64,000 nt of DNA from Rubrivivax sp. (GTDB taxonomy: Bacteria > Pseudomonadota > Gammaproteobacteria > Burkholderiales > Burkholderiaceae_C), in the NCBI GenBank assembly GCA_022843905.1, contig JALHMT010000006.1, positions 186,001-250,000 of the forward strand, in the 5' to 3' direction. Under the pieces are notes generated by a model. That model was not told the DNA's origin and searched no databases. It saw only the letters and a program-made list of their open reading frames with translations. Within the stretch, counting starts at the first letter, position 1; each line of letters starts with the position of its first letter. Shown here piece by piece: positions 14,993 through 18,948 of this stretch. The position numbers were made by a program, and so were the translations under genes.

Positions 14993-15139
14993 ATGGCTGA
15001 AACAAAGGGCTCGATCTCGGGCCTGAGCGACGACGAGGCCCAGGAGTTCCACAGGTACTACATCCAGGGGTTTATCGGCTTCACGGCAATTGCCTTGGCA
15101 GCCCATATGCTCGTCTGGATCTGGCGCCCCTGGCTCTGA
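14993..15139 (+). CDS. pufB: Light-harvesting 1 beta polypeptide
   Basis: A 48-residue LH1 beta apoprotein. His20 and His38 stand at the conserved -18 and 0 positions; His38 ligates B870 bacteriochlorophyll. The C-terminus WIWRPWL is the standard beta-chain hydrogen-bonding aromatic motif. The ATG at 14993 follows GAAGGAG at a good distance. Base composition is less GC-rich than the flanking bch genes, as is usual for highly expressed antenna genes. The next gene is not pufA but an LH1-beta-like ORF. Confidence 0.97.
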
Positions 15140-15175
15140 TCACCTGAACGTTTGACCCGATAACAGGGGACCACC

Positions 15176-15400
15176 ATGGCCGTTATTCATAAAGAACTAT
15201 CGCACTCGGTGACGGAGCATGATTTCCGAAGCTTCGGGATCATTTTTGCACTGGGTTTTGCGGTGTTTCTCGTGATTGCCTTGATCGGGCAATTGCTGGG
15301 TTGGCATTGGCGTTCCTGGTTGCCGGGGGCTGAAGGTGCAAGATCGATTTTTGGCGGCGTTAAAGCTGGTGTTTACACCTTCATGTCGCACTTACTGTAG
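15176..15400 (+). CDS. LH1-beta-like single-span protein without ligand His, between pufB and pufA
   Basis: I do not recognise this 74-residue gene as a named PGC member. It has a polar N-terminus (1-19), one membrane span (about 20-42) and a 25-residue tail ending FMSHLL. Aligning on the W-R-x-W-L motif, residues 30-49 match the end of PufB at about half of positions (I-A-L, L, W-x-W-R-x-W-L), but the bacteriochlorophyll ligand His is Gln39 and the His at -18 is Gly21. By hand count it is about 50 percent GC, clearly lower than the bch genes. It is 36 bp after pufB and 12 bp before pufA with its own start, so it is probably translated with them. A structural LH1 subunit, ring-opening PufX-like role or decayed paralogue are all possible; function is unproven. 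Confidence 0.85.
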   Translation: MAVIHKELSHSVTEHDFRSFGIIFALGFAVFLVIALIGQLLGWHWRSWLPGAEGARSIFGGVKAGVYTFMSHLL

Positions 15401-15412
15401 GAGCTTGGAATC

Positions 15413-15619
15413 ATGTGGAGAATTTGGCGTCTGATCGACCCGCTTCGTGCGCTCGTCGCACAGGCAGTTTTCTTGTTCGGCCTGGCAGCGATGATTCACC
15501 TCATCCTGCTGAGTACCAACAAGTACAACTGGATGGATGGCCCGGCGGCTGCAAAGCCGGTGGCATCGGTGACCTCACCGATGCCAGCCTCCGTGGCTTC
15601 GCTGACCTTGACGAAGTAG
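15413..15619 (+). CDS. pufA: Light-harvesting 1 alpha polypeptide
   Basis: A 68-residue LH1 alpha apoprotein. It has the typical N-terminus [10 protein letters not shown], a single membrane span, His29 in MIHLILL as the B870 ligand, and Trp40 in NKYNWMDG. The Ala/Val/Pro-rich tail from about residue 44 is encoded by DNA that also folds into a strong mRNA hairpin. It lies only 12 bp after the unknown LH1-like ORF and 116 bp before pufL. Confidence 0.97.
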
Positions 15620-15627
15620 CTTTCGTC
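15562..15627 (+). promoter_or_regulatory. Paired mRNA hairpins at the pufA 3' end
   Basis: GGCATCGGTG (15562-15571) pairs with CACCGATGCC (15576-15585), a 10-bp stem with a 4-nt loop inside the pufA coding end. A second stem GACGAA(G)/(T)TTCGTC spans 15610-15627 over the pufA stop. In other purple bacteria hairpins between pufA and pufL block 3' decay and give excess antenna over reaction-centre mRNA; these are placed for the same role. Confidence 0.65.
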
Positions 15628-15735
15628 GAGCCAGTGGCATCGGGCGGGGTCGGAACGACTCCCGGCTTCGCCCGCTTGCAAGTGCAAACTCACCGTCGGA
15701 CAAGGTCCTCTGCACCCGGCGGATGGAGATAGAAA

Positions 15736-16575
15736 ATGGCAATGCTGAGTTTCGAGAGAAAGTACCGCGTTCGCGGTGGAACCCTCGTCGGTGGCGATCT
15801 GTTTGATTTCTGGATGGGCCCGTTCTACGTGGGTTTCTTCGGCGTCACGACGGCTTTCTTCTCGTTCGTCGGTACTGCCCTGATTTTCTGGGGTGCCAGC
15901 CAGGGTCCGACCTGGAATCCTTGGCAGATCAACATCGCTCCGCCCGATCTCTCTTATGGGCTTGGAATTGCCCCGCTGCTGGAGGGGGGCTTGTGGCAGA
16001 TCATCACCGTGTGTGCCATCGGTGCCTTCGTGTCGTGGGCGCTGCGCGAGGTGGAAATCTGCCGAAAACTCGGCATGCAATACCACGTGCCGATCGCCTT
16101 CGGTTTTGCCATCTTTGCCTATGTGACGCTGGTGGTGATCCGTCCGGTGCTGCTGGGCGCATGGGGTCACGGCTTCCCGTACGGCATCTTCAGTCACCTC
16201 GACTGGGTGTCTAACGTGGGTTACCAGTACCTGCACTTCCACTACAACCCGGCGCACATGCTGGCGATCACCTTCTTCTTCACGACGACGCTGGCGTTGT
16301 CGATGCACGGTGGCCTGATCCTGTCGGCGAGCAACCCGCCCAAGGGTGAGCAGGTGAAGACCACCGACTCCGAGGACACCTTCTTCCGCGACGCCATCGG
16401 CTACTCGATCGGCTCGCTGGGCATCCACCGCCTGGGCTTGTTCCTGGCGCTGGCAGCGGTGTTCTTCAGTGCCGTCTGCATCGTGATCAGCGGTCCGTTC
16501 TGGACACGCGGCTGGCCCGAGTGGTGGGGCTGGTGGCTGAACCTCCCGATCTGGAGCCAATGGCCGCTGAAGTGA
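15736..16575 (+). CDS. pufL: Photosynthetic reaction centre L subunit
   Basis: A 279-residue L subunit of the type-2 reaction centre, binding the special pair, accessory bacteriochlorophyll and quinone with PufM. The N-terminus [20 protein letters not shown] and the segments [18 protein letters not shown] and GILFF-type helix (here [14 protein letters not shown]) match the family, with five predicted spans. A ribosome site GGAG precedes the ATG. It is followed 16 bp later by pufM. Confidence 0.98.
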
Positions 16576-16591
16576 GCCGCAGGAGAACACC

Positions 16592-17587
16592 ATGCCCCAA
16601 TTCATGCCTGAGTATCAGAACCTCTTCACCACCGTCCGCGTCGCGGGACCGTCCCACCTGGGGGTTCCGCTGGCCAAGGGCGACGACATCCGGATCGGTT
16701 CCCCGCCGATCCAGGTGCCCTTCTTCGCCCGCCTGGGCATGGCCCAGATCGGGCCGGTCTACCTCGGGACGCTGGGCGTGGCCTCGTTGTTCCTGGGCAC
16801 GCTGGCCTTCGTCATCATCGGCATGAACATGTTCGCGTCGGTGGGCTGGGACCCGGTGCAGTTCGTGCGCCAGCTGTTCTGGCTGTCGCTCGATCCGCCG
16901 GCGCCCAAGTACGGCCTGGGGCTGGCGCCGCTCAACGAAGGCGGCTGGTGGAACATCGCCGGCCTGTTCCTCACCGTGTCCATCCTGCTTTGGTGGGCGC
17001 GCATGTACCGCCGGGCCCGCGCGCTCGGCCTGGGCACCCACGTCGCCTGGGCCTTCGCCGCGGCGATCTGGCTGTTCCTGGTGCTGGGTCTGATCCGCCC
17101 GGTGATGATGGGCAGCTGGTCGGAGGCCGTGCCCTTCGGCGTGTTCTCGCACCTCGACTGGACAGCGGCCTTCTCCATCCGCTACGGCAACCTCTTCTAC
17201 AACCCCTTCCACGCGCTGTCGATCGCCTTCCTGTACGGCTCGACCCTGCTCTTCGCGATGCACGGCGGCACCATCCTGGCCGTCAGCCGCTTCGGCGGGG
17301 AACGCGAGCTGGAGCAGATCGTCGACCGCGGCACGGCCTCCGAACGCGCGGCGCTGTTCTGGCGCTGGACGATGGGCTTCAACGCGACGACCGAGTCGAT
17401 CCACCGCTGGGCGTGGTGGTTCGCCGTGTTGTGCCCGCTGACCGGCGGCATCGGCATCCTGCTCACCGGCACGGTGGTCGACAACTGGTACCTGTGGGCG
17501 GTGCAGCACGGTGTTGCGCCCCCGTATCCCGCGCAGTTCGGCAACATGGTCGACCCGGCCGCAGCACTCCAGGGAGCCAAGCCGTGA
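16592..17587 (+). CDS. pufM: Photosynthetic reaction centre M subunit
   Basis: A 331-residue M subunit, partner of PufL. The family segments [14 protein letters not shown]-like entry, [32 protein letters not shown] and [14 protein letters not shown] with the non-heme Fe and quinone-A ligands are visible. Five membrane spans. Its TGA overlaps the GTG of pufC (GTGA), so the cytochrome is translationally coupled. Confidence 0.98.
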
Positions 17588-18948
17588 ACGCCTTGACCCG
17601 AATCACCACCTTCGTGCTCACCGTGGGCGCTGCCGTGCTGCTCGCGGGCTGCGAGCGTCCCCCCGTCGACACCGTGCAGTCGGGCTACCGCGGCACCGGC
17701 ATGGAGCAGGTCTACAACCCGCGCCTGCTGGCCGCCCAGGTGCCGTTGAACCAGGCGCCGCCCCTGATCCCCCAGGGCGGGCCGGAAGGTCCGAAGGCCA
17801 AGGACGTGCTGCAGAACGTGAAGGTGCTGGGCGACCTGAGCATTGCTCAGTTCACCAACAGCATGGTCGCGATCACGGCCTGGGTGTCGCCCAAGGAGGG
17901 CTGCAACTACTGCCACGTTCCCGAGAACATGGCCGACGACTCCAAGTACACCAAGATCGTGTCGCGTCGCATGCTCGAGATGACGCAGAAGATCAACGCC
18001 GAATGGACACCCCACGTGGCGGCCACCGGTGTGACCTGCTACACCTGCCACCGTGGCGAGCCCGTGCCGTCGAAGATCTGGTTCACGGCCAAGGCGCAGG
18101 ACCAGGGGCCCAAGTTCATCGGCAACCGCAATGGCCAGAACGCGCCCGTGGGCAACGTCAAGGCCGGCTCGCTCGATGTCGATCCGCTCACTCCCTACCT
18201 GCTGAAGACGTCCGACATCCGGGTGGTCGGCAAGACGACGCTGCCCAGCGACCACGTGGCCTCGATCCAGGCGACCGAGAGCACCTACTCGCTGATGATG
18301 CACTTCTCGTCCTCGCTGGGCGTGAACTGCACCTATTGCCACAACTCGCGCAACTTCGGCAAGTGGGAAGAGAGCCCGCCGCAGCGGACGACGGCCTGGC
18401 ACGGCATCCGCATGGTCAACGACCTGAACAATGCCTTCCTGGTGCCGTTGACCTCGACCTTCCCGGCCAGCCGCCTGGGCCCGACGGGCGACGTCGGCAA
18501 GGTGTCCTGCGCGACCTGCCACCAGGGTGCCTACAAGCCTCTGTACGGGGCGGCGATGGCCAAGGACTACCCCGCAATGCTGCGGGCGCCCGCGGCAGCC
18601 ACCGCCACGCTGCCCGCGCCGGTGGCCGAGGCGCTGCGCTCGGTGCTGTACTTCGACGTCGGCTCACCCGTGCTCAAGGGCGAGCAGGAAGTCGGTCTGG
18701 CGCAGCTCATCGCCTCGATGAAGAGCACACCGGCCACCACGGCCACCATCTCGGGCTTCCACTCGGCGGCCGGCACGCTGACGCAGAACCAGGAGCTGGC
18801 CAAGCAGCGTGCCTTCACCGTGCGTGACTCGCTGCTGGCAGCGGGCATCGCCGAGTCGCGCGTGACGCTGGCCAAGCCGCAACAGACCGAAGCCAACCTG
18901 GCCGGTGAGGATCCGACGGCACGGCGCGTCGAGGTCACGATCAAGTAG
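17584..18948 (+). CDS. pufC: Tetraheme reaction-centre cytochrome with C-terminal OmpA-like domain
   Basis: PufC is the membrane-anchored tetraheme cytochrome that re-reduces the special pair. The lipobox LLAGC gives lipidated Cys23. Heme motifs are CNYCH (107), CYTCH (152), CTYCH (249) and CATCH (309), so the cytochrome body ends near 335. The remaining residues 350-454 form an OmpA/MotB-like domain: [11 protein letters not shown], then [31 protein letters not shown], and ARRVEVTI. The peptidoglycan-binding Asp expected in GHTD is replaced (GFHS), while the Arg in KQRA remains. With 454 residues it is about 100 longer than usual PufC. No stop or frameshift separates the parts. Confidence 0.95.

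Follow-up and report, generated by a model that had tools for sequence, protein, structure and literature searches.

In Rubrivivax gelatinosus an open reading frame termed ORF2 is located upstream of pufA, and its function is given as unknown (PMC12817894, citing Nagashima 1994). In the available parts of that paper ORF2 is aligned with PufA, PufA1 and PufA2 only, and section 8 is silent on any kinship with the LH1-beta subunit (PMC12817894). In Roseateles depolymerans a major transcript of 1 kb carries ORF74 together with pufB and pufA, and carbon starvation was found to alter these three loci most (PMC10037100). A mutant without the sigma factor SP70 retained 0.71, 1.09 and 2.34% of the pufA, pufB and ORF74 transcripts, respectively (PMC10037100). 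Judged by place and length, the gene analyzed here is the same gene as these two, and the R. gelatinosus DSM 1709 orthologue is found at L027:8001-8222. The original prediction knew of no described gene at this position, but ORF2 and ORF74 are both in print (PMC12817894; PMC10037100). No statement that ORF2 is a beta paralogue was found in the open-access literature searched, as far as its texts were available. The gene itself is not new; what is new relative to the literature searched is its identity as a ligand-free beta with a selected tail, and its exchange with a PufQ-like gene.

A second described system is PufQ. Rhodobacter sphaeroides (Rba. sphaeroides) without pufQ has 6% of the wild-type bacteriochlorophyll (BChl), and the C-terminus of PufQ is predicted to be cytoplasmic (PMC5725709). 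The same paper raises the question of how the haem/BChl branch is regulated in purple bacteria that have no PufQ orthologue.

The gene between pufB and pufA

The window, i.e., the whole stretch analyzed, is 64,000 nucleotides of Rubrivivax sp. DNA and carries the gene order bchX-bchY-bchZ-pufB-ORF2-pufA-pufL-pufM-pufC, where the names bchX, bchY and bchZ are putative assignments by family. ORF2 has 74 codons and starts with ATG. It is separated by 36 bp from the pufB stop codon (ending at 15139) and by 12 bp from the pufA start at 15413, and these coordinates agree with the 74-codon gene and the spacers originally predicted. The features of the region are:

14993..15139, + strand: pufB, 48 aa, short form ending in WRPWL with both His present (NCBIfam pufB_517_ASD E 3.8e-23; Pfam LHC E 3.9e-13)
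15165..15169, + strand: AGGGG, Shine-Dalgarno-like, 6 nt 5' of the ORF2 start (sequence inspection)
15176..15400, + strand: ORF2/ORF74, 74 aa, paralogue of LH1-beta lacking the pigment ligand (homology, alignment, orthologue counts)
15230..15298, + strand: ORF2 codons 19-41, predicted single transmembrane span (AlphaFold2 helix 17-41, model mean pLDDT 71.8; beta homology)
15290..15292, + strand: ORF2 codon 39, Gln at the BChl-ligand position (alignment)
15323..15397, + strand: conserved 25-residue tail of ORF2, PGAEGARSIFGGVKAGVYTFMSHLL, with a predicted helix 58-73 (alignment, AlphaFold2, entropy, dN/dS)
15401..15412, + strand: 12-bp spacer between ORF2 and pufA, of the same length as the spacer between a long pufB and pufA where ORF2 is absent (gap survey)
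15413..15619, + strand: pufA, LH1-alpha (NCBIfam pufA_517_ASD E 6.3e-19)
15605..15740, + strand: hairpins between pufA and pufL, downstream of pufB-ORF2-pufA (RNA folding energy -56.1 kcal/mol, z -2.28; as low a value in 4 of 200 shuffles)
15736..16575, + strand: pufL (Pfam Photo_RC E 3.4e-99)
16592..17587, + strand: pufM (Pfam Photo_RC E 2.4e-108)
17584..18948, + strand: pufC, tetrahaem cytochrome gene starting with GTG, its product carrying an OmpA domain at the C-terminus (CytoC_RC E 1.7e-139; OmpA E 1.9e-10)

The hairpins at 15605-15740 would suit a stable pufB-ORF2-pufA message. The GTG start of pufC overlaps the pufM stop. Inspection of 12 loci by eye found the end of PufC to be similar to that of the window in five of ten relatives with a detected PufC (L024, L029, L031, L038 and L043) and unlike it in R. 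gelatinosus (L027).

Relationship of ORF2 to LH1-beta

A phmmer search of ORF2 against PDB chains placed LH1-beta chains at the top (8z81_B, E 3.6e-10; 9m8m_B, 1.3e-9; 7xxf_B, 2.8e-9). The best of these matches scored only 43 bits, and the PDB therefore holds no chain of the ORF2 family. The profile comparison by hhalign of ORF2 with long PufB gave E 4.1e-23, with control values of 0.0026 for PufA, 0.19 for PufX and 0.11-0.15 for reversed profiles. Both searches bear out the LH1-beta homology first proposed from the window. The slight likeness to PufX that had also been proposed was not supported, the PufX value (from a profile of three sequences only) being no better than those of the reversed controls. 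The NCBIfam pufB model NF040862 scored ORF2 at 18.4 bits (E 0.0015), short of its curated cut-off of 61, and no ORF2 match was listed for Pfam LHC (PF00556).

Ungapped alignment from the WRxWL motif pairs Gln39 of ORF2 with the ligand position and Gly21 with position -18, which confirms the original reading of both replacements. Among 123 ORF2 sequences the ligand site was occupied by Gln in 92, Thr in nine, Ala in five, Leu in five, Ser in four, Lys in three, and Gly, Met, Glu, Cys and His in one each. Since the site is otherwise varied and has His only once, no pigment ligand has been kept. Almost any residue was found at position -18, with His in four of the 123. The Ala at -4 was retained in 118 and the W-R pair in 119. 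The single sequence with a ligand-site His (L186, genome G172) has no His at -18.

ORF2 thus has the PufB homology of an LH1 antenna beta and lacks the ligand His, the -18 His and a score at the curated cut-off. It is a paralogue of LH1-beta, most likely one that no longer holds pigment and is not itself an antenna subunit; the variable ligand position supports the earlier view of a non-pigmented product. Gln is able to ligate chlorophyll in other proteins, and an alternative antenna beta binding BChl through Gln39 would agree with the prevalence of Gln at the site. However, sister sequences have Thr, Ala, Leu, Ser, Lys, Gly, Met or Cys at the same site and the -18 His is lost as well, and we consider such an antenna role very unlikely.

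Conservation of ORF2 and the three operon states

Orthologues of ORF2 (E <= 1.7e-10) were found in 39 of 81 genomes of the same genus, the genome of the window included. When matches to PufB itself were counted as well, the numbers were 45 of 81 in the genus (E <= 0.01) and, at E <= 0.001, 63 of 399 in the family, 48 of 399 in the order, 9 of 369 in the class and 20 of 398 in the phylum. Named carriers (21 loci on genome contigs) were R. gelatinosus DSM 1709 and IM 151, R. benzoatilyticus JA2, Piscinibacter aquaticus, Rubrivivax pictus and metagenome bins. One puf operon (L032) lies in a metagenome bin that bears the name Bordetella parapertussis, probably a misnomer. Counting by reaction-centre genes (PF00124), a check that is not biased by ORF2, gave 44 of 349 genomes of the order. 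Thirty-four of the 44 carried ORF2, five had a long PufB without ORF2, three (all of family group f23) had a short PufB without ORF2, and two were at contig edges. ORF2, a gene whose nature had been unknown, is hence carried by 34 of the 44 sampled Burkholderiales with reaction-centre genes. It occurred in nine family groups (f1, f2, f3, f8, f10, f13, f18, f20 and f30), and none was seen after pufB among the 23 class or phylum genomes with a match outside Burkholderiales.

The tail of ORF2 comprises the 25 residues from P50 to L74 and ends in SHLL. It was exactly 25 residues long in 115 of 117 distinct ORF2 sequences, and in those 115 its mean entropy was 1.10 bits compared to 1.83 for the span. 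Estimated from 62 overlapping and non-independent pairs from 58 loci, dN/dS was 0.09 for the W-R pair and tail of ORF2, 0.24 for its span and 0.11 for the span of PufB. The tail is, judged from these sequence measures, the constrained part of ORF2 and under strong selection, and the distinctive SHLL-ending tail noted originally is supported in both its fixed length and its conserved residues. AlphaFold2 modelled helices at 17-41, 45-48 and 58-73.

A match of at most four bases to the anti-Shine-Dalgarno sequence was found for 57 of 123 ORF2 genes, compared to 11 of 142 pufB and 7 of 141 pufA genes. The third-position GC content of ORF2 in the window was 0.55, compared to 0.74-0.94 in pufB, pufA, pufL and pufM. 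The poorer ribosome sites and the low third-position GC fit, weakly, with less ORF2 product than beta. The deviating GC content would also fit a chance or decaying open reading frame that is transcribed and functionless, as would the frequency of such frames: of 1723 stretches of 273 nt drawn at random from the window, 40 (2.3%) contained a complete + strand frame of at least 70 codons. The length of ORF2 is therefore by itself weak proof of a gene, and conservation is the proof. Against a chance frame stand its presence in nine family groups and the low dN/dS, which make it extremely improbable.

We compared 142 puf operons from 140 Burkholderiales genomes. ORF2 was accompanied by a short PufB in 123 operons and by a long PufB in none; of the remaining 19, 12 had a long PufB and seven a short PufB, both without ORF2. 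PufB in the 123 ORF2 operons ended 0-2 residues past WRxW[LFI], while the 12 long PufBs had 26-27 extra residues. Genes were counted as PufB by having both His, so that the presence of these residues is true by construction. All seven short-PufB operons without ORF2 had a PufQ-like gene (about 75-90 codons, 68-89 bits) upstream of pufB, and none scoring at least 10 bits was found there in the 12 long-PufB operons or the 123 ORF2 operons. This absence is weaker for five ORF2 loci in which the sequence ahead of the pufB end is shorter than 700 nt (L076, L079, L084, L088 and L205). No operon had two of ORF2, long PufB and PufQ-like gene, and each therefore has one of the three.

Left out of the 142 were the orthologue in G072, L160/G018 (no puf operon seen), repeats of genomes already counted (L163, L165, L166, L167, L170 and L171), weak matches in long frames judged to be unrelated (G096, G808, G050, G036 and G066), reaction-centre genes at contig ends (G617 and G766) and loci L024-L044, many of which repeat these genomes under names. 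ORF2 of G524 was on another contig than the reaction-centre genes. Two copies of the puf operon (L153 and L154) were found on different contigs of one genome, G062.

The association between ORF2 and PufB length in the 142 operons gave a Fisher p of 6e-13 with kinship ignored. On a PufL tree of 138 of the 142 the states were mixed, with 10 changes in all, and an independent-pair test found two to three pairs on supported branches, which is not significant. Outside Burkholderiales a PufQ-like gene and a long PufB were found together at L102, L114, L115, L116, L120, L124 and L219, and a short PufB with no PufQ-like gene detected at L106, L107, L125, L126 and L224 (Novosphingobium). Because of this coexistence and these lone short PufBs the exclusion is not a general rule, and both observations count against a PufQ-class role of ORF2.

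The spacing of the genes bears on the origin of ORF2. With all starts chosen by script, the gap between ORF2 and pufA was 10-22 bp with a median of 12 (n=122). Where ORF2 is absent and pufB is long, pufB and pufA were 11-12 bp apart in 12 of 12. ORF2 therefore occupies the place of the end of a long pufB. The gap between pufB and pufA was 32-73 bp in the seven short-PufB operons without ORF2, and that between a short pufB and ORF2 ranged from -19 to 99 bp (median 29, n=123). Five of the 12 long PufB tails (three of group f30 and one each of f11 and f43) scored 26.7-30.6 bits against the profile of the ORF2 tail, a level reached by 0 of 200 shuffles; the other seven had no clear match (-1.5 to 4.4 bits, reached by 4 to 115 of 200 shuffles). 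The ORF2s formed one clade with SH-aLRT 99 (61 thinned rows, 56 columns). The sequences thus support descent of ORF2 from a long-tailed beta. In the simplest reading a long pufB would have been duplicated in tandem, after which one copy would have retained the pigment and shed the tail while the other retained the tail and shed the pigment.

Proposed role and comparison with known systems

PufQ-like single-span proteins are encoded upstream of pufB in the seven Burkholderiales operons and at several alpha- and gammaproteobacterial loci, and have a tail pattern like SVFGEAKAAANxxxPFAFM. Their genes were seen between bchZ and pufB at L143, L144 and L145 (f23), L140, L153, L154 and L155, and at L218:1620-1841. 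In Thiodictyon a PufQ-like protein at the place of pufQ is annotated as hypothetical, and none of the PufQ-like proteins scanned reached a Pfam or NCBIfam cut-off. The profile for the upstream scan was built from 16 seeds, including L140, L143, L145 and L153; the non-seed genes at L144, L154 and L155 scored 85.6, 79.7 and 69.7 bits against it.

With an hhalign profile of 13 seeds, from which two annotated PufQs and L103 were excluded, the PufQ-like proteins matched ORF2 at E 8.3e-15 and long PufB at 5.7e-14. The match to bona fide PufQ was moderate (E 3.2e-6, probability 88%). ORF2 against bona fide PufQ (six sequences) gave E 0.0024, which is not above the PufA control of 0.0026, and the comparison of bona fide PufQ with long PufB gave the control-level value of 0.1. 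The link to PufQ therefore runs only via the PufQ-like proteins. The Pfam PufQ model PF05398 listed no match to ORF2 at E <= 10, in a program whose filters drop most weak matches, and found nothing above its cut-off in genomes G003 and G171. Full-length PufBs scored 46.6-54.4 bits against the PufQ-like profile when long (n=12) and 4.9-33.9 bits when short. Searched against two whole genomes, a PufQ-like profile of eight sequences without ORF2 had ORF2 as its top match in both (E 3.4e-10 in the genome of the window and 1.2e-11 in R. gelatinosus G003), with the next matches at 0.22 or worse.

ORF2 probably aids the building of the antenna rather than light capture, and it may stand in for pufQ, which is missing from its usual place. 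Our favoured explanation, which we hold to be evenly balanced between right and wrong, is that ORF2 is a former long-tailed pufB that now serves as a PufQ-class helper of LH1 assembly and/or BChl supply. We lean to it because ORF2 and an upstream PufQ-like gene never co-occur in the 142 operons, and because the PufQ-like profile ranks ORF2 first in two genomes. If the beta topology is kept, ORF2 would insert as one span with the N-terminus in and the C-terminus out, and its tail would act as the PufQ-class helper of the operon beside a tail-less PufB.

The main rival, to which we give a clearly smaller but still substantial chance, is that ORF2 is a stable subunit of the RC-LH1 core that carries no pigment, placed in or beside the ring like PufX, protein-W or gamma in other cores. 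Its tail would lie on the periplasmic face and touch the cytochrome or adjacent betas, and the subunit would influence how the ring closes and how quinones pass. The beta homology, the co-transcription with pufBA and the purifying selection agree with such a subunit, and the retained Ala at -4 (118 of 123) and W-R (119 of 123) would make beta-like packing possible. An opening in the ring through which quinones pass, or a cap over the reaction centre, as originally proposed, would be possible. However, ORF2 has no PufX likeness, no solved chain above 43 bits is available to place it in a core, and operons without ORF2 and long PufB hold PufQ-like genes rather than genes of known ring subunits.

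A narrower form of the helper explanation is that ORF2 is a detached assembly tail, by which Burkholderiales would supply the insertion-stage beta tail as a separate peptide. The mature beta of Rps. palustris comprises Ser2-Ala53, its C-terminus being cut off (PMC7806223), and the encoded length is 65 residues (PDB chain length). Removal after synthesis fits a tail used for assembly only, as do the fixed length and conservation of the ORF2 tail. The whole ORF2 span is, however, kept under selection (dN/dS 0.24), and this form is unlikely when taken separately, its probability overlapping with that of the broader PufQ-class explanation.

More tentatively, and with somewhat less confidence than the helper role itself, we suggest that the LH1-beta tail, the PufQ-like proteins (and via them PufQ) and ORF2 carry one functional module born in the LH1-beta family. 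In the Burkholderiales examined each puf operon would have a single source of this module, one gene out of the three, and ORF2 would be the stand-in for PufQ in purple bacteria that lack it. Since ORF2 and PufQ-like genes exclude each other here, the question raised in PMC5725709 is open to deletion and complementation. A ligand-free beta with a selected tail is also a named target for structural work on RC-LH1, the nearest solved chain being at 43 bits.

Compared to known systems, ORF2 is closest in sequence to long-tailed PufB (PF00556, NF040862), with which it shares the span sequence and WRxWLPG. It differs from PufB in lacking both His, in scoring below the family cut-off or without a listed match, and in being a separate gene beside a pigment-binding PufB. 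In some RC-LH1 cores PufX, protein-W and gamma occur as small membrane proteins without pigment. The pufX gene directly follows pufM, whereas ORF2 precedes pufA and pufM is followed by pufC. Protein-W has three transmembrane helices, whereas a single span-length helix is predicted in the AlphaFold2 model of ORF2, and the gamma-like peptide of Rhodopila has 22 residues compared to 74 in ORF2. With PufQ (PF05398) and the PufQ-like proteins ORF2 has in common one span, a conserved tail and a place in the puf operon. PufQ is encoded on the other side of pufB, between bchZ and pufB, whereas ORF2 lies after pufB. The tail of ORF2 would be periplasmic by beta homology whereas the C-terminus of PufQ is predicted to be cytoplasmic (PMC5725709), which counts against the PufQ reading.
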